From Paraburkholderia aromaticivorans (lineage in GTDB: Bacteria > Pseudomonadota > Gammaproteobacteria > Burkholderiales > Burkholderiaceae): a DNA stretch of 64,000 nucleotides. Position 1 is the first letter of the stretch, and every line of letters starts with the position of its first letter. The DNA lies in the NCBI RefSeq assembly GCF_002278075.1, contig NZ_CP022989.1:930001-994000 (forward strand), read 5' to 3'. This document shows positions 20,547 to 47,791 of the stretch, in pieces. The position numbers were made by a program, and so were the translations under genes. The notes under the pieces were generated by a model. The model was given only the letters and a program-made list of their open reading frames with translations. It did no database searches and was not told the DNA's origin.

Positions 20547-21812
20547 ATGGTGTTCAGCAAGGTTCTGACGAAGTGTGCGGTGATCTGTGCAGCGGCTGCG
20601 TGCACTGTCGCGCTCGCGCACGCCGACCCGCTCGCCGACACCCAGGCAGGACCGCTGACCCGGGCTCACGTTCCGCGTATTGCGCTCGACGACGACGTTT
20701 ATCTGCCCAGCGCGGGCCTCAACGAACAGATCATCCGCGTGCCGGTCGACGCAGCCGGCACGGTCACCCTCGAAACGACGATCTACAAGCCAGACGGCGC
20801 GGGCCCGTTTCCGATGATCGTTTTCAACCACGGCAAGATTCCCGGCGACCCACGCGCGCAGGAGCGCAGCGACCCGCTGCCGTTCGCACGTGAATTCGTG
20901 CGCCGCGGCTACGTGGTAGTGGCGCCGAACCGCCAGGGTTTCGGCCGCTCGGACGGCGTGTACGAGCAAGACGGTTGCGATGTCGAAAAAAACGGCCTCG
21001 GTCAGGCCGGCGACGTCGCTGCAACGATCGACTTCATGTCGAAGCAGCCTTACGTGGACGCGACCCATATTGTCGTAGCCGGCACTTCGCACGGCGGCCT
21101 TGCGACGATCGCGTACGGCACTGAGGCCGCGCCGGGCGTGCGGGCACTGATCAATTTTTCCGGCGGCTTGCGGCAGGATGCCTGCAGCGACTGGCAGGGC
21201 AACCTGACGCGCGCGTTCGGCGCGTACGGCGAGAAGACCAAGGTGCCGTCGCTGTGGATGTACGGCGATAACGATTCCGTCTGGAACGCGCCGCTGGTGG
21301 CGGGCATGTACGCCGCGTACGGTGCGCATGGCGCGAGCGTCAAGATGGTGGATTTCGGCAACTACAAGAACGACGCGCACCGGCTGGTCGGCGACCGCGA
21401 CGGCGTGCACGTGTGGTGGCCGGCTGTCGAGGCTTTCCTTGCGCGTGTCGGGATGCCGACGGGTGTGCAATATCGCGTGTCGGATCCTTCCACGCCGAAA
21501 GCGAGCGGGTTTGCCGCTGTCGATGCGGTCGATGCCGTGCCGTTTGTCGACGAAGCCGGGCGCAATGGGTATCGGAATTTCCTGCATCAGTTTCCTAGCC
21601 GGGCTTTTGCTGTGTCTGATACCGGGGCCTGGTCGTGGGCTGAAGGCGGCGACGATCCGATGTCGGTTGCCGTGGCGAATTGTCAGAAGCAGAGTTCGGC
21701 GCCTTGCCGGTTGTATGCGGTGAATAATGCGGTGGTTTGGGGGGATCAGTCTTCGCAGACGGCTGAGAGCGGTGGTGCCGATGCTCGGCGGGATGTGGCT
21801 AGTCGGGAGTAA
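20547..21812 (+). CDS. Secreted alpha/beta hydrolase (dienelactone-hydrolase-like)
   Basis: A 421-residue protein with a signal peptide (hydrophobic core near 8-25, AHA-D cleavage near 27). The catalytic triad is readable: Ser181 in GTSHGG, Asp241 or Asp243 in YGDNDSVW, and His278 in NDAHRL. The fold includes FNHGKIPGD (oxyanion region) and FVRRGYVVVAPNRQGFG. Residues after about 300 form an extra C-terminal domain with two Cys (CQKQSSAPC), likely a disulfide. It resembles dienelactone hydrolases and prolyl oligopeptidase-like esterases; the substrate is unknown. The dispersed repeat starts right after the stop codon. The upstream extension to 20244 is not used because it has no signal peptide. 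Confidence 0.82.
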   Translation: MVFSKVLTKCAVICAAAACTVALAHADPLADTQAGPLTRAHVPRIALDDDVYLPSAGLNEQIIRVPVDAAGTVTLETTIYKPDGAGPFPMIVFNHGKIPGDPRAQERSDPLPFAREFVRRGYVVVAPNRQGFGRSDGVYEQDGCDVEKNGLGQAGDVAATIDFMSKQPYVDATHIVVAGTSHGGLATIAYGTEAAPGVRALINFSGGLRQDACSDWQGNLTRAFGAYGEKTKVPSLWMYGDNDSVWNAPLVAGMYAAYGAHGASVKMVDFGNYKNDAHRLVGDRDGVHVWWPAVEAFLARVGMPTGVQYRVSDPSTPKASGFAAVDAVDAVPFVDEAGRNGYRNFLHQFPSRAFAVSDTGAWSWAEGGDDPMSVAVANCQKQSSAPCRLYAVNNAVVWGDQSSQTAESGGADARRDVASRE

Positions 21813-21815
21813 GGG

Positions 21816-21977
21816 GTTTTTGCCTGCTCGGCGGGTTTTTTTGTCTGTGTTCTCGTTGGTGTTGGCCTTTCCTTGTTTTCTTACTGGTCTATTGGCGTTG
21901 CCCCTGTGCGGGGCGGCACCTACTTTCTTTGCCGCGGCAAAGAAAGTAGGTAAAGAAAGCCGCTTTGGACCGCCAGC
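21816..21977 (+). repeat. Dispersed palindromic repeat, left copy, outer part
   Basis: First part of a ~285-bp repeat interrupted by the insertion sequence; it continues at 23350. It runs from tttttgcctgctcggcgggt through the hairpin gcccctgtgcggggc to a 34-bp perfect palindrome at 21918-21951 (arms acctactttctttgccg and its complement, no spacer). The other copy of the same sequence is inverted at 23746-24034. Frames through this DNA (for example on either strand ending in PTFFAAAKK) come from the repeat and are not genes. I recall this sequence as widespread in Paraburkholderia intergenic DNA. Confidence 0.85.
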
Positions 21978-22005
21978 GGACCTATCCGCGATTTCGTGGG
22001 CGGGG
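21978..22005 (+). repeat. Left terminal inverted repeat of the IS
   Basis: ggacctatccgcgattt onward. It differs from the right end at repeat positions 7, 13, 14 and 26 only. Confidence 0.9.
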
Positions 22006-22027
22006 CATATCATGAGGGATCAAGGTC

Positions 22028-23302
22028 ATGGATATGCCGATGAAAAAGAAACGGACAGCAGCGTCTCAGGCAGCGGCCCGCGGGCCGCTGCCTGAACTGC
22101 CAGATGAGTTGATGGATCAACTGGTCAAAGGGCCTATGTCGCCCGGCGACGTTCAAGACCTGATGCTGGCATTCAACAAGGCCATCATCGAACGGGCGAT
22201 GGGCGCCGAGATGAATCTGCATCTGGGTTACCCGTCCGGCCAGGTCAAGCCGCTCGGTCAGGTCAACGAACGCAACGGCGCCAGTGGCAAAACCGTCATG
22301 ACCGACCGCGGCCCGGTTCGGGTCGAGATCCCACGCGACCGGGACGGCAGCTTCGAGCCGATCCTCATTCCCAAGCACGAGCGCCGTTTTACCGGCTTCG
22401 ACGAGCGCATCATCGCGATGTACGCGCGTGGCATGAGTGTGCGTGAGATCCGCGCTTTTCTAGCCGAGAGCTACGGAACCGAGGTCTCGCCCGATTTCAT
22501 CAGTTCGGTGACCGACGAAGTCATGGCCGAAGCCTTCGCCTGGCAAAGTCGTCCGCTCGAGACGATGTATCCGGTGGTGTTCTTCGACGCGCTGCGGGTC
22601 AAGATTCGCGACGGCGGCATGGTCAGCAATAAGGCCGTGTACCTGGCGCTGGGCATCCAGGCCGACGGCCAGCGCGACGTGCTGGGGCTCTGGATCGAGC
22701 AGACCGAAGGCGCGAAGTTCTGGCTCAAGGTGTTCAACGAACTCAAGACGCGCGGCTGTCAGGACATCCTGATCGCCGTGGTGGATGGTCTGAAGGGTTT
22801 GCCCGAGGCAATCGCTGCGGTCTACCCCCGTGCCACCGTGCAGACCTGCATCGTGCATTTGATCCGCAATAGCCTGGAATTTGCCAACTACAAGGACCGC
22901 AAAGCGCTCGCCCAAGCGTTGAGACCGATCTATGCTGCCGCCAGCGCAGAGGCCGCAGAGCAAGCGTTACGCGACTTCGCCGAAGGGCCATGGGGCGCCA
23001 AATACCCGATGATCGTCCAATGCTGGCAGCGTGCCTGGGAGCACGTCATACCGTTCTTCGTGTTCCCCCCGGACATTCGACGGGTGGTGTACACCACCAA
23101 CGCCATTGAGAGTTTGAACATGCAACTGCGCAAGATCATCAAGACGCGAGGCCATTTCCCGAACGACGAGGCGGCCGTCAAGCTGCTCTGGCTCGCGCTA
23201 CGCAACATGTTGGCGAAATCGGTGCGGAGCACCTTTGATTGGAAATCCGCGATGAACCAGTTTGCTATTCTGTTCGGTGAACGATTTACGCAGGCCCGTT
23301 GA
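22028..23302 (+). CDS. IS256-family (Mutator-type) transposase
   Basis: A 424-residue DDE transposase that cuts and rejoins the element ends. The catalytic acidic residues can be placed at Asp187 (VVFFDALRVK), Asp253 (AVVDGLKGLPEAI) and Glu361 (TNAIESLNMQLRK). The Mutator-type hallmark around CIVHLIRNSL and the YTTNAIE motif are present. Length is normal and no frameshift is seen. The N-terminus is Lys/Arg-rich (MKKKRTAAS), as expected for end binding. Confidence 0.96.
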   Translation: MDMPMKKKRTAASQAAARGPLPELPDELMDQLVKGPMSPGDVQDLMLAFNKAIIERAMGAEMNLHLGYPSGQVKPLGQVNERNGASGKTVMTDRGPVRVEIPRDRDGSFEPILIPKHERRFTGFDERIIAMYARGMSVREIRAFLAESYGTEVSPDFISSVTDEVMAEAFAWQSRPLETMYPVVFFDALRVKIRDGGMVSNKAVYLALGIQADGQRDVLGLWIEQTEGAKFWLKVFNELKTRGCQDILIAVVDGLKGLPEAIAAVYPRATVQTCIVHLIRNSLEFANYKDRKALAQALRPIYAAASAEAAEQALRDFAEGPWGAKYPMIVQCWQRAWEHVIPFFVFPPDIRRVVYTTNAIESLNMQLRKIIKTRGHFPNDEAAVKLLWLALRNMLAKSVRSTFDWKSAMNQFAILFGERFTQAR

Positions 23303-23321
23303 GCACGAGGGTTTTTAACCG

Positions 23322-23349
23322 CCTCGCCCACGAAAATGCGGACAGGTCC
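23322..23349 (-). repeat. Right terminal inverted repeat of the IS
   Basis: Its complement reads ggacctgtccgcatttt onward, matching the left end at 24 of 28 positions. Confidence 0.9.
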
Positions 23350-23480
23350 CCGCCAGCTCATAAGCGGGTCTCCCGCACAGCCACGGTAGTGGCCCATCTG
23401 GAATCCGTGCCCTCGCACATTCCGCCTTCGTGACAAGGCAGTCATTCTTCCGGCGACGCTGCGCGCGCCGTCGCGGTACC
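23350..23480 (+). repeat. Dispersed repeat, left copy, inner part
   Basis: Continuation of the repeat begun at 21816 after the IS. It carries the conserved block cacggtagtggcccatctgg (near 23382-23401), which reappears inverted in the right copy. Removing the IS and one target duplication restores an uninterrupted copy of about 285 bp. The inner edge is approximate. Confidence 0.8.
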
Positions 23481-23745
23481 TCATTCAAACCACGTCGTAC
23501 CCACCGCCTGCAGTACCTCTCGGTTCAGCTTCCCTTCCTTCTCGACGGCACTTCGTACCCTGCTCTTTTTTGCGGCGGCCCCTCGTAAAGCTGCTGGTGA
23601 CTTCTTCTACCGGCTGGTCTCTTGAATCGGTGCTGCGTCCTGCCTCGTCAAAATTCCGAAGCCACTGGCCAACCACTTCAGCGCCACGCCGAGGCGAAGC
23701 CGACGGCCCCCACTGCCTAAGAACGAAGCCTCTGTCTTGAACGCA
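23481..23745. other. Unique segment between inverted repeat copies
   Basis: About 265 bp separating the two inverted copies. A frame on the minus strand (23485-23796, 103 codons) crosses it but is highly charged, lacks a Shine-Dalgarno and runs into the repeat, so I do not call a gene. No other structure is evident. Confidence 0.5.
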
Positions 23746-24034
23746 CCGTTCCGGCGCGCGCGCAGCACGAGGCGGGAAGCACGACTGCTGTGTCACGAGC
23801 GCGGAAAGTGCGACGACACAGATTCCAGATGGGCCACTACCGTGACTGTGCGGGGGACCCGCCTAAGAGCTGGTGTGAAGCGGCCGCGGCTTTCTTTGCT
23901 TACTTTCTTTGCGGCGGCAAAGAAAGTAGGTGCCGCCCCGCACAGGGGCAACACTAATAGACCACCAAGAAAGCAAGGAAAGGCCAACACCCAAAGAGAA
24001 CCCAGCCCACACCCGCCGAGCAGGCAAAAAAACA
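23746..24034 (-). repeat. Dispersed palindromic repeat, right (inverted) copy
   Basis: Inverted copy of the repeat at 21816-23480, uninterrupted and about 288 bp. Its palindrome has decayed slightly: 12-bp arms (tactttctttgc / gcaaagaaagta) around a 4-nt centre at 23901-23928. The block gcccctgtgcggggcggcac is conserved exactly in its complement. It lies upstream of bioA and ends about 240 bp before that gene. Confidence 0.85.
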
Positions 24035-24277
24035 CCCACACCCCCAATTTCCCGCCAGTAAAACCCAACTACTTTGCCGTCGCTAACTGCGCCGATCATG
24101 AACCATCGATCGAAAACAGACCCCACCTGCGCGGAACAGCCCACAACCCCGGCGCCGCAGGCAAAAACCGCCCACCTACCCCCTAGTGCACAGCACGAAA
24201 TAAACCGCTAATCTCAACCCCGCACGCCCGCCAAGGGCCGCGCGCAGCGCAGAAAAAAGACGCGCAGCACGCCCAAA

Positions 24278-25695
24278 ATGGCCCTAAAAAAGCCACGCCG
24301 CGCAGCGGCAAAAAAAAGTACCCTGGAGTACCCTTTGGAAACGTCAGCACCACAGTCAACCTCCCCCGAAGACTGGATCACCCGCAGCCTGCGCGCCGTC
24401 TGGCACCCCTGCACCCAGATGAAGCACCACGAACGCCTGCCGCTCGTGCCCGTCGCGCGCGGTCAAGGCGCATGGCTGTACGATCGCGCCGGTCATCGCT
24501 ATCTGGATGCCATCAGCTCCTGGTGGGTCAACCTGTTCGGTCACGCCAATCCGCGCATCAACGCGGCATTGAAACACCAACTCGACACGCTCGAACACGC
24601 AATGCTCGCCGGCTGCACGCATGAACCGGCCATCGAACTCGCGGAGCGACTCGGCGCCCTCACCGGCAACACGCTCGGCCATGCCTTCTTCGCATCGGAC
24701 GGCGCGTCCGCCGTCGAAATCGCCTTGAAGATGAGCTTCCACTCGTGGCGCAATCGCGGTTTCGCCGACAAGCAGGAATTCGTCTGCATCGCCAACAGCT
24801 ATCACGGCGAAACCATCGGCGCGCTCGGCGTCACCGATGTCGCACTTTTCAAGGACGCCTACGATCCGTTGATCCGCCACGCGCACGTCGTGGCATCGCC
24901 CGATGCGCGCCTCGCGCAAGCCGGCGAGAGCGCTGCCGATGTCGCGCGCCGAGCGCTCGATCACGTTCGCTCACTGTTCGAAGCACGCGCCACGAAAATC
25001 GCCGCGGTAATCGTCGAGCCACTGGTGCAGTGCGCGGCCGGCATGGCCATGCACGACGCGTCCTATATCGCCGGATTGCGCACCCTGTGCGATCAGTACG
25101 GCGTGCATCTGATCGCCGATGAAATCGCCGTCGGCTGCGGGCGCACCGGCACCTTCTTCGCATGCGAACAGGCCGGTATCTGGCCAGACTTCATCTGTCT
25201 GTCCAAAGGCATCAGCGGCGGCTATCTGCCGCTCTCGATCGTGTTGTCGCGCAATGAAATTTTCGAAGCCTTCTATCACGACGACACCGCGCGCGGCTTC
25301 CTGCACTCGCATTCGTACACGGGCAATCCGCTGGCCTGCCGGGCGGCGCTCGCCACACTCGATCTGTTCGAGAGCGACGACGTTCTGGCCGCCAACACGC
25401 GCAAGTCCGCGACGCTGAAAACCGCACTCGCACCACTCGCCACCCACGAACGCGTTCGCAATCTGCGCCAGTGCGGCACGATCTTCGCGTTCGACGCCGT
25501 GATCGACGATGCTCAGCAAGCCAGAACATTCTCGCGCCGCTTCTTCGAAAACGCGTTGCAGCGCGAATTGCTGCTGCGCCCGATCGCGACCACGGTGTAT
25601 CTGATGCCCCCTTATATCCTCGACGACGAAGAACTCGCGCTGCTCGCCTCGCGCACGCGTGAGACCTTCGACGCCACGCTTGCGGAGACCCGCTG

Positions 25696-25696
<1 letters not shown>
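24278..25696 (+). CDS. bioA: Adenosylmethionine--8-amino-7-oxononanoate aminotransferase
   Basis: BioA converts 8-amino-7-oxononanoate to 7,8-diaminononanoate with S-adenosylmethionine as amino donor. It is a class III PLP aminotransferase of 472 residues from this ATG. The PLP lysine is Lys310 ([13 protein letters not shown]), and [19 protein letters not shown] and [12 protein letters not shown] are typical. [11 protein letters not shown] near the N-terminus is the BioA hallmark. The ATG has no Shine-Dalgarno. A TTG at 24335 has GGAG at good spacing and would remove a 19-residue Lys/Arg-rich extension, so it may be the true start. First gene of the bioAFDB operon. Confidence 0.95.
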
Positions 25697-46762: not shown

Positions 46763-47791
46763 ATGGCTCGCCCGAAACTGCTTCCCGACAACTTCACCTT
46801 ATGCCTCGTCGGCACGGTGATTCTTGCCAGCTTCCTGCCGGTTCACGGGCAGGCCGCCGTCGGCTTCAACTGGGTGACGAACGTGGCGGTCGGCCTGCTG
46901 TTTTTCCTGCACGGCGCCAAGCTCTCACGCGAAGCGATCATTGCGGGCGCGACGCATTGGCGTTTGCACGCGGTGGTGCTGCTCAGCACGTTCGCGCTCT
47001 TTCCGCTGCTCGGCCTCGCGCTTAAGCCGCTCCTTTCGCCACTTGTCACGCCGGCGCTCTATGCGGGGATCCTCTTCCTCTGCACGCTGCCGTCTACGGT
47101 TCAGTCGTCGATCGCGTTCACGTCCATTGCCAAAGGCAACGTGCCGGCTGCGGTATGCAGCGCGTCGGCCTCGAGCCTGCTCGGCATCTTCATCACGCCC
47201 GCGCTCGTCAGCCTCGTAATCGCCAATCAGGCGGGCGCGAGCGGCGCTTCGCCGTGGCACACGGTGGGCAACATCGTGCTGCAGCTGCTGGTGCCGTTCG
47301 TGGCCGGGCAGCTGCTGCGCCCGTTGATCGGCAAGTGGATCGAGCGCAATCGCGGCGTGCTGAAGTTCGTCGACCAGGGGTCGATCCTGCTGGTGGTGTA
47401 CGGCGCGTTCAGCGAAGCCGTCACTGAAGGCCTGTGGCATCAGATTCCGCTCTCCGCGCTCGGCGGCCTGCTGGTGGTTTGCGTCGTGCTGCTCGCTCTC
47501 GCCCTCGCCGTGACGATATTCGTCAGCAAGCGGCTCGGCTTTAGCCGTGCGGACCAGATCACCATCATCTTCTGCGGCTCGAAGAAGAGCCTCGCGGCCG
47601 GCGTGCCGATGGCCAAGGTGATTTTCGCCTCGCATGCGGTGGGCGCCGTGGTCTTGCCGCTCATGCTGTTCCACCAGATCCAGTTGATGGTGTGCGCCGC
47701 GCTCGCGCAGCGCTGGGGCGCGCGCGACACCAGCGGCGAGGCCCACGCCGCCTCGCGCGAGCGGACCGCCGCCGCCGTCGCGCGCCGTTGA
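46763..47791 (+). CDS. Bile acid:sodium symporter-like (SBF-like) membrane protein
   Basis: A 342-residue inner-membrane protein with about nine or ten transmembrane helices, of the SBF-like family (YfeH/DUF4137 relatives). The motifs LPSTVQSSIAFTSIAKGNVPAAVC and FCGSKKSLAAGVPMAK are diagnostic. It is probably a sodium-coupled symporter for an organic anion; the substrate is not known. The C-terminal 30 residues are a soluble Arg/Ala tail. A terminator follows 58 bp after the stop. Confidence 0.9.
   Translation: MARPKLLPDNFTLCLVGTVILASFLPVHGQAAVGFNWVTNVAVGLLFFLHGAKLSREAIIAGATHWRLHAVVLLSTFALFPLLGLALKPLLSPLVTPALYAGILFLCTLPSTVQSSIAFTSIAKGNVPAAVCSASASSLLGIFITPALVSLVIANQAGASGASPWHTVGNIVLQLLVPFVAGQLLRPLIGKWIERNRGVLKFVDQGSILLVVYGAFSEAVTEGLWHQIPLSALGGLLVVCVVLLALALAVTIFVSKRLGFSRADQITIIFCGSKKSLAAGVPMAKVIFASHAVGAVVLPLMLFHQIQLMVCAALAQRWGARDTSGEAHAASRERTAAAVARR

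Follow-up and report, generated by a model that had tools for sequence, protein, structure and literature searches.

An inverted-arm repeat at Paraburkholderia gene ends, its kilobase strand-asymmetric flanks and a possible origin in single-strand exposure

In the 64-kb stretch of Paraburkholderia DNA analyzed here (the window), an intergenic repeat element is located between a hydrolase gene (stop codon ending at 21812; Pfam peptidase/hydrolase families) and a gene at 24278–25696 that we take, from its sequence and neighbours, to be bioA. The usual unit of this element is an inverted pair of two ~275-bp arms, whose outer ends face outwards on either side of a variable centre. On its outer side, each arm is flanked by a strand-asymmetric footprint of ~1 kb, in which the strand running 5′ to 3′ toward the arm loses C (and overall A) and gains T and G. 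This footprint goes with the presence of the arm, being strong with an arm and mostly weak or absent without one at four orthologous loci. It may be, although we would put this somewhat below an even chance, that this is a dispersed element with polar arms, each of which renders the adjoining kilobase single-stranded in a strand-specific manner, such that dozens of gene ends per genome fall under a strand-biased mutation regime of their own. A preliminary description of the locus had missed both the skew and the recurring pair; the most informative feature is the composition of the flanking genes, outside the segment that it covered.

Structure and distribution of the arm element

The left arm occupies 21817–21977 plus 23358–23470, and the right arm 23757–24030 on the minus strand (~274 bp each). 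The arms are inverted toward each other, ~285–289 nt apart between their inner parts, and their inverted matches comprise 106 nt at 92%, 116 nt at 82% and 20 nt at 100%. The left arm begins, 4 nt past the stop codon of the upstream gene, with a recurrent outer module (TTTTTGCCTGCTCGGCGGG..., 21817–21857, plus strand), followed by a conserved core (GGTGTTGGCCTTTCCTTG...GCCCC..GGGGC...palindrome; 21858–21963, plus strand; L042:3859–3964) that contains the GC hairpin GCCCCTGTGCGGGGC (21900–21914, plus strand) and a perfect 34-bp palindrome (21918–21951). Its inner part (23358–23470, plus strand) was identified as an inverted-repeat match, as was that of the right arm (23757–23885, minus strand), which continues into the conserved core (23886–23991, minus strand), with the reverse complement of the GC hairpin at 23935–23949 and an imperfect counterpart of the palindrome, and ends with the outer module (23992–24030, minus strand). 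The left arm is interrupted by a 1372-bp IS256-family element (21978–23349, plus strand; transposase at 22028–23302), assigned by Pfam Transposase_mut (4.4e-125) and NCBIfam transpos_IS256 (2.6e-120) and flanked by an 8-bp target duplication, CCGCCAGC, at 21970–21977 and 23350–23357; the ends of the insertion sequence (IS) and the positions of the duplication were read by eye from the sequence. Subtraction of the IS and one duplication leaves 274 nt, which by arithmetic is the length of the right arm. The preliminary description had reported this equality, the two inverted copies, the split of one by an IS, their intergenic position and, in each copy, a GC hairpin followed by an A/T-rich palindrome, and all of these were reproduced. 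It had also placed about 265 bp of unique DNA between the copies; the distance between inner parts is 289 nt, and the copies are two arms of one bilateral element rather than two separate repeats. Allowing up to 2 mismatches, GTTGGCCTTTCCTTG had 2 matches vs 0.06 expected, and allowing up to 3, AAAGAAAGTAGGTGCCGCCCC had 2 vs 0.01, thereby indicating that the repeat is not due to chance. No Rfam family matched at its gathering score in the 64-kb window.

A 280-base arm query gave 35 matches in the same genome (40 of 56 candidates scored), several of which were the palindrome matched on the other strand. Twelve loci fetched from this genome comprised nine inverted pairs and three solo arms, and in three of the nine pairs (L034, L038 and L039) the arms were cut at the hairpin. 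Arm matches were found in 33 of 39 genomes of the genus, and the exact core pattern occurred up to 68 times in one genome (counts complete), so that the great abundance in Paraburkholderia claimed in the preliminary description was borne out by a genus-wide search and the copies are far from being just these two. Among 299 genomes of the family, the exact pattern GGCCTTTCCTTG-N18–26-GCCCCTGTGCGGGGC was present in 24, all of them among the 39 of the window's genus, vs none for a reversed control pattern. The first 20 genus loci fetched were nearly all evident pairs in the match list. Of 20 further loci from the same list, 16 had an opposite-strand partner, always in plus-then-minus order, which means that the outer ends face outwards; 12 of another 20, picked by eye because no partner was listed, were still paired in this order. 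Among the 80 named-contig loci listed (of 120 stretches), 45 had at least one plus-then-minus pair, two were minus-then-plus and 31 were one-armed, many of these near a contig or locus end; the names on these 80 loci were Paraburkholderia, Burkholderia sp. and three Caballeronia species. Folded as RNA, one whole element (L158) formed a single giant hairpin of −519 kcal/mol, vs −282 for 20 shuffles. A selected long RNA stem within the element was not supported, because inner-arm identity was 0.63 within elements (39 pairs, two of which, L033 and L042, carry IS sequence that slightly lowers the mean) vs 0.66 when different elements of one genome were compared.

The consensus of 96 arms starts at the outermost end with TTTTTTTGCCTGCGsGGCGC, followed by a G/T-rich stretch, GGTGTTGGCCTTTCCTTG, a TGGTCTATTAGC stretch, the GC hairpin, the TACTTTCTTTGCCGCCGCAAAGAAAGTA palindrome and a more variable inner part that retains GTGACAnnGCnnTCAT. 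Since the core served as the query by which arms were selected, its conservation stems partly from that selection. The outer module is tandemly repeated in some arms. A simple GC3 rule was used to call neighbouring genes and yielded both neighbours in 42 of 48 pair loci: 14 of these pairs lie between convergent genes, 25 between tandem genes and three between divergent genes. A stop codon precedes the core by 28–57 nt in 29 of 55 3′-facing flanks. The preliminary description had suggested a gene-end or DNA-architecture role and proposed counting orientations and empty sites; elements that often follow closely on stop codons and seldom separate divergent genes are compatible with such roles, and the one empty orthologue read (L050) had a junction too diverged for a target duplication of the arm element to be delimited. 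At an orthologous site between convergent genes, four carriers (L336–L338 and L357, with the same right neighbour) have a 661–766-nt space that holds two arms, and in 12 of 20 non-carriers a perfect hairpin with a stem of at least 7 lies shortly past the stop codon; in carriers, this hairpin comparison covered the first ~150 nt. In the consensus, the GC hairpin is followed by GGCAC(C/T)TACTTTC and the palindrome by an A-rich stretch, with no U run as in an intrinsic terminator. The elements may, we infer, also stop transcription from one gene to the next.

The centre of the window element spans 23471–23756. In three other pairs of the same genome (8 of 12 own-genome loci and the window were scanned), this position is occupied by a C4 antisense RNA together with a 150-aa ORF, a cassette that L099 also contains. 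The ORF has 354 homologues, and the 120 listed bear hypothetical or uncharacterized names, except for one source name, squalene cyclase. The C4 cassette was also found outside arms and, at a site between genes that are presumably cbiX and cobA (L031 and L099), is inverted relative to its flanks. It was discarded as the engine of the element, because only two of 30 C4 loci had arm hits within ~1.5 kb per side, one of them single-armed. IS elements were repeatedly found inside arms or centres; 1352 bases of the window IS recur in eight identical genome copies, three of which (window, L033 and L038) lie inside arm elements. A non-autonomous mobile element, one of the roles first suggested for the repeat, is possible, but the nine centres read contained no transposase besides those of inserted ISs, and there was no link to RAYT transposases.

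Composition of the outer flanks

The initial visual sign of the footprint was that gene ends were G/T-rich to the left and C/A-rich to the right of the element. In the window, the G/T-rich top strand extends from the left arm into the 3′ end of the hydrolase gene (20800–21816, plus strand), and the G/T-rich bottom strand from the right arm across the bioA upstream region into the bioA 5′ end (24031–25000, minus strand); both extents are approximate, the left one being taken from the average gradient. With L052, L053, L054 and L099 set aside, the composition of the arm-pointing strand changed smoothly from A.180, C.316, G.323 and T.181 at 2–2.5 kb (79 flanks) to A.126, C.174, G.381 and T.319 at 0–50 nt (96 flanks, 52 of 56 loci), with a fitted decay length of 604 nt and an offset of 0.001. 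At four-fold sites of genes whose coding strand runs toward the arm, C changed from.374 to.141, T from.075 to.377 and A from.058 to.022. Where the coding strand runs away from the arm, T changed from.052 to.251 and C from.416 to.236, and A showed no fall near the arm (.085 far,.101 at 0–150 nt). The C-to-T shift at four-fold sites is thus independent of gene orientation, and A falls clearly only where the coding strand runs toward the arm.

A skew above 0.1 was found in 87 of 88 flanks of 44 pairs, vs 9 of 87 controls at 2–2.4 kb. Both sides were skewed in 43 of the 44 pairs, with left and right values nearly uncorrelated (r 0.16), and a replication-fork barrier, which predicts a one-sided effect set by fork direction, was rejected on these figures. 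New loci gave 31 skewed outer flanks of 32, and named genomes (80 of 120 stretches listed) gave 111 of 123, vs 6 of 92 far controls. Random DNA from the same genome, 400 kb without an arm hit, exceeded an absolute skew of 0.25 in 0.2% of 400-nt windows, vs 60 of 96 arm flanks; the strongest skew flips in random DNA were.20 (L187, where no arm motif was seen) and.175 (L178, with a remnant outer module). Within the 64-kb window, the two strongest flips were the two arms (23950 and 21900), and two of the next three (near 47700 and 35450) showed no arm motif on reading. No word was strongly over-represented in the flanks (largest z ~4, small counts). A Chi-like site was discarded, as Chi was seen 6 times in the flanks vs 5.5 expected, with no excess. 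The lone motif TTTTGCC[TC]G was discarded as the cause, because 13 copies away from the window element averaged.051 upstream, with one above.2 (L178); the copy at 24166 was kept out of this mean since it lies inside the element's own footprint.

Solo arms were skewed on one side. Thirteen of them had a mean skew of.26 in the first outer 300 nt vs.01 in the first inner 300 nt, and six solo arms of named genomes gave.247 vs −.019, with just.03 on the outer side in one of the six. This leaves either a polar arm or the loss of the other side from former pairs, of which solo arms would be the remnants; one solo arm (L157) retains half of a lost partner. The lack of inner skew fits poorly with a simple two-ended break, unless solo arms are such remnants.

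The dependence on the arm was seen by comparing orthologous loci. At the bioA locus, the last 300 nt of the hydrolase gene had a skew of.25–.28 where the arm is present (window, L052, L053 and L054),.07–.12 where the site holds a different insert, is empty or has a decayed copy (L049, L050 and L051), and −.15 to −.03 in nine genomes with no arm, six of which carry arms elsewhere; L056 lacked the upstream gene. The 150 nt before bioA gave.33–.55,.28–.40 and −.20 to.13 for the same three classes, which indicates that the three intermediate loci are still skewed on the bioA side. For three further genes (30, 29 and 29 loci, each drawn from the best 30 of 39 matching genomes, with L369 and L408 omitted for short flanks), carriers vs non-carriers had skews of.207 (n=10) vs.025 (20),.247 (13) vs.037 (16) and.321 (7) vs.122 (22), with Mann-Whitney p-values, which ignore phylogeny, of 1.7e-5, 3.0e-5 and 8.0e-5. 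In both the skew and the divergence comparisons, L361 was classed as a carrier because 30 nt of its 171-nt space matched the arm. Four loci were skewed without a detected arm (L351,.22; L370,.29; L400,.21; L411,.30), and these could be recent arm losses or missed arms.

Possible origin of the footprint

Our preferred reading, which we consider only just short of an even chance and which is drawn from sequence comparison, is that of a bilateral gene-end element whose arm would start processing, with recurrent single-strand exposure of the outer flank writing the gradient. Processing would start at the arm, either with a nick specific to one strand or with cleavage of the hairpin or cruciform into which the arm can fold. 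Removal or unwinding of the strand with its 5′ end at the arm would then proceed outwards and leave its complement, which runs 5′ to 3′ toward the arm, single-stranded until the gap was refilled. Damage to the bare strand would turn C to T and A to G by deamination, and possibly G to T by oxidation; repeated over evolutionary time, such damage would produce the composition gradient, and selection for GC at synonymous sites would convert part of the T into G. Exposure of the arm-ending strand is suggested by the sign of the skew, by the loss of C and gain of T, by their independence of gene orientation, by the two-sided footprint of pairs regardless of fork direction and by the one-sided footprint of solo arms.

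This reading is kept tentative because synonymous divergence was not clearly raised and C-to-G differences were common. The near/far ratio of synonymous divergence was 1.38, 1.15 and 1.18 in carriers vs 1.46, 1.13 and 1.37 in non-carriers over all pairs, and 1.46, 2.45 and 2.04 vs 1.64, 1.72 and 1.77 over close pairs; since carriers are not clearly above non-carriers, raised divergence was dropped as a demonstration of a mutation hotspot. C-to-G differences at the bioA locus numbered 11–17 vs 4–9 for C-to-T (11 comparisons), which argues that plain deamination is not the whole account and that a second step, e.g. selection for GC, is needed. Near the arm, close carriers (14 pairs in total) vs non-carriers had G–T differences per site of.11,.17 and.10 vs.05,.04 and.07, and C–T differences of.092,.115 and.078 vs.065,.046 and.081, the latter being higher in two of the three genes.

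It is rather unlikely that the arm is instead an oriT-like site, left over from rolling-circle or single-strand transposition, in which an HuH enzyme of the relaxase or RAYT type nicks one strand and unwinding runs outwards. The one-sided footprint at solo arms and the GTAG or GTAA that adjoins the GC hairpin would fit such a site, but PF01797 proteins were present in 21 of 21 genomes, the arm-free G009–G011 among them, and none of their 29 loci has an arm within ~1.5 kb per side (best hit, 19 nt; E 0.26), so that a RAYT/REP relationship was not supported. Moreover, the PF01797 copy of G000 reads GAVQLLV where the HuH motif is to be expected.

Transcription offers an explanation that we regard as unlikely, in which polymerase stalls at the hairpin-rich gene end and R-loops bare the non-template strand, leading to coding-strand C-to-T changes upstream of the element. 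The placement of the core shortly past stop codons and the sign of the skew in 3′-facing flanks agree with it. However, the 35 flanks in which genes are transcribed away from the arm have the same sign and a similar size at 0–100 nt (GC skew.33 and TA skew.45, vs.36 and.35 in 60 3′-facing flanks), and the footprint is also present at the bioA 5′ end.

No more probable is selection on composition, whereby RNA leaving the element would be kept rich in C and poor in G, like a rut site, allowing Rho to stop read-through, the arm-pointing strand being G/T-rich as a result. Outward RNA does have C above G and A above U on both sides, the polarity of solo arms fits, and divergence is not raised. Rut sites are not expected to be U-poor and A-rich, as the outward RNA is, and the effect spans synonymous sites over hundreds of nucleotides as well as the 5′ coding part of downstream genes, with no strongly enriched word. 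An ordinary non-autonomous, MITE-like transposon that chose already skewed sites without causing the footprint is improbable, for although terminal inverted repeats, high copy number and presence or absence between species agree with it, armless orthologous sites are mostly unskewed even in genomes with arms elsewhere (six of nine at the bioA locus).

Relation to known systems

A literature search at the level of results listings, with subscription journals largely outside its reach, returned no description of the element or the footprint. If single-strand exposure is the correct reading, the element would provide a natural many-copy assay of how bacterial DNA becomes locally single-stranded, and would offer, within one chromosome, replicate sites at which palindrome processing could be tested. 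It would be a repeat that reshapes the codon usage of adjoining genes, would explain the odd G/T-rich gene ends in the genus and would caution against taking them for foreign DNA or for a sign of selection.

MITEs carry terminal inverted repeats, and the arm element shares these, as well as the lack of a transposase in most copies read. It differs in having no defined target duplication and no autonomous relative seen in the nine centres read, and in its conserved core and variable inside. In mitochondrial and bacterial replication strand asymmetry, a G/T-rich strand is attributed to single-strand exposure; the arm footprint is similar in its G/T-rich strand, but is centred on many local elements and lies on both sides of pairs. 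To our knowledge, kilobase strand-asymmetric flanks have been noted for no REP. REPs are extragenic palindromes of 20–40 bp found with RAYT transposases (PMC3733652). REP, BIME and REPIN sequences resemble the arms as extragenic palindromes of high copy number that form inverted pairs and are targeted by ISs (ISPpu9 in REPs); the arms differ in being ~275 nt long with several palindromes, in having GTAG or GTAA beside the GC hairpin and in having no adjoining RAYT. The nearest process is that of fragile inverted repeats in yeast, for which an increase in mutations as far as 8 kb to either side is reported and long single-stranded regions are proposed (PMC3681665). There, as here, long inverted repeats, proposed single-stranded DNA and effects on genes on both sides are combined, and the arm element, like a fragile palindrome, has a long inverted repeat able to form a hairpin, as in the L158 fold, and a footprint that switches strand between its two sides in nearly all pairs. 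The yeast case concerns reporter constructs and distances of up to 8 kb, whereas the arm element is a natural dispersed bacterial element whose footprint, known from sequence composition, decays over ~600 nt and is one-sided at solo arms.

Inversion of a pair centre

In three of the own-genome loci in which two arms lie inverted around a variable centre, that centre contains a C4 antisense RNA (RF01695; L031:5222-5308, L033:4444-4540 and L037:5179-5270, minus strand), followed by a 150-aa ORF that matched no known family in NCBIfam, the one collection compared. C4 matches were observed in 30 of 39 genus genomes, and an ORF homologue was located downstream of C4 in 11 of the 30 C4 loci read. 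Comparison of L031 (4829-5476) with L099, the locus sharing its site in another species, showed that the C4/ORF segment is reversed against orthologous flanks, so that the centre of an arm pair can flip.

Insertions and remnants

Three of the eight identical copies of an IS256-family element lie inside arm elements (window 21978-23349; C1:526545 and C1:2379122 of the same genome), although these elements constitute a tiny fraction of the genome, and the arm elements therefore look like targets for IS insertion. IS-like remnants with the ends AATGCTCTCAACTTAAGCCCC are located at the GC hairpin of two pairs (L034:4192-5254 and L039:3725-4275). At L178:15780, in a random stretch of the same genome, a single outer module (TTTTTTGCCTGCGGCGC...GGTTGGCC) occurs with the remainder of the arm absent; it is likely to be a remnant, and it too carries the skew, on one side.

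A RAYT-like protein

A PF01797 (RAYT-like) protein was detected in 21 of 21 genus genomes, with one match each in 17. The own-genome copy (L116; G000:C1:1529554-1529844) reads GAVQLLV at what we take to be the place of the HuH motif, and is perhaps a domesticated, inactive nickase.
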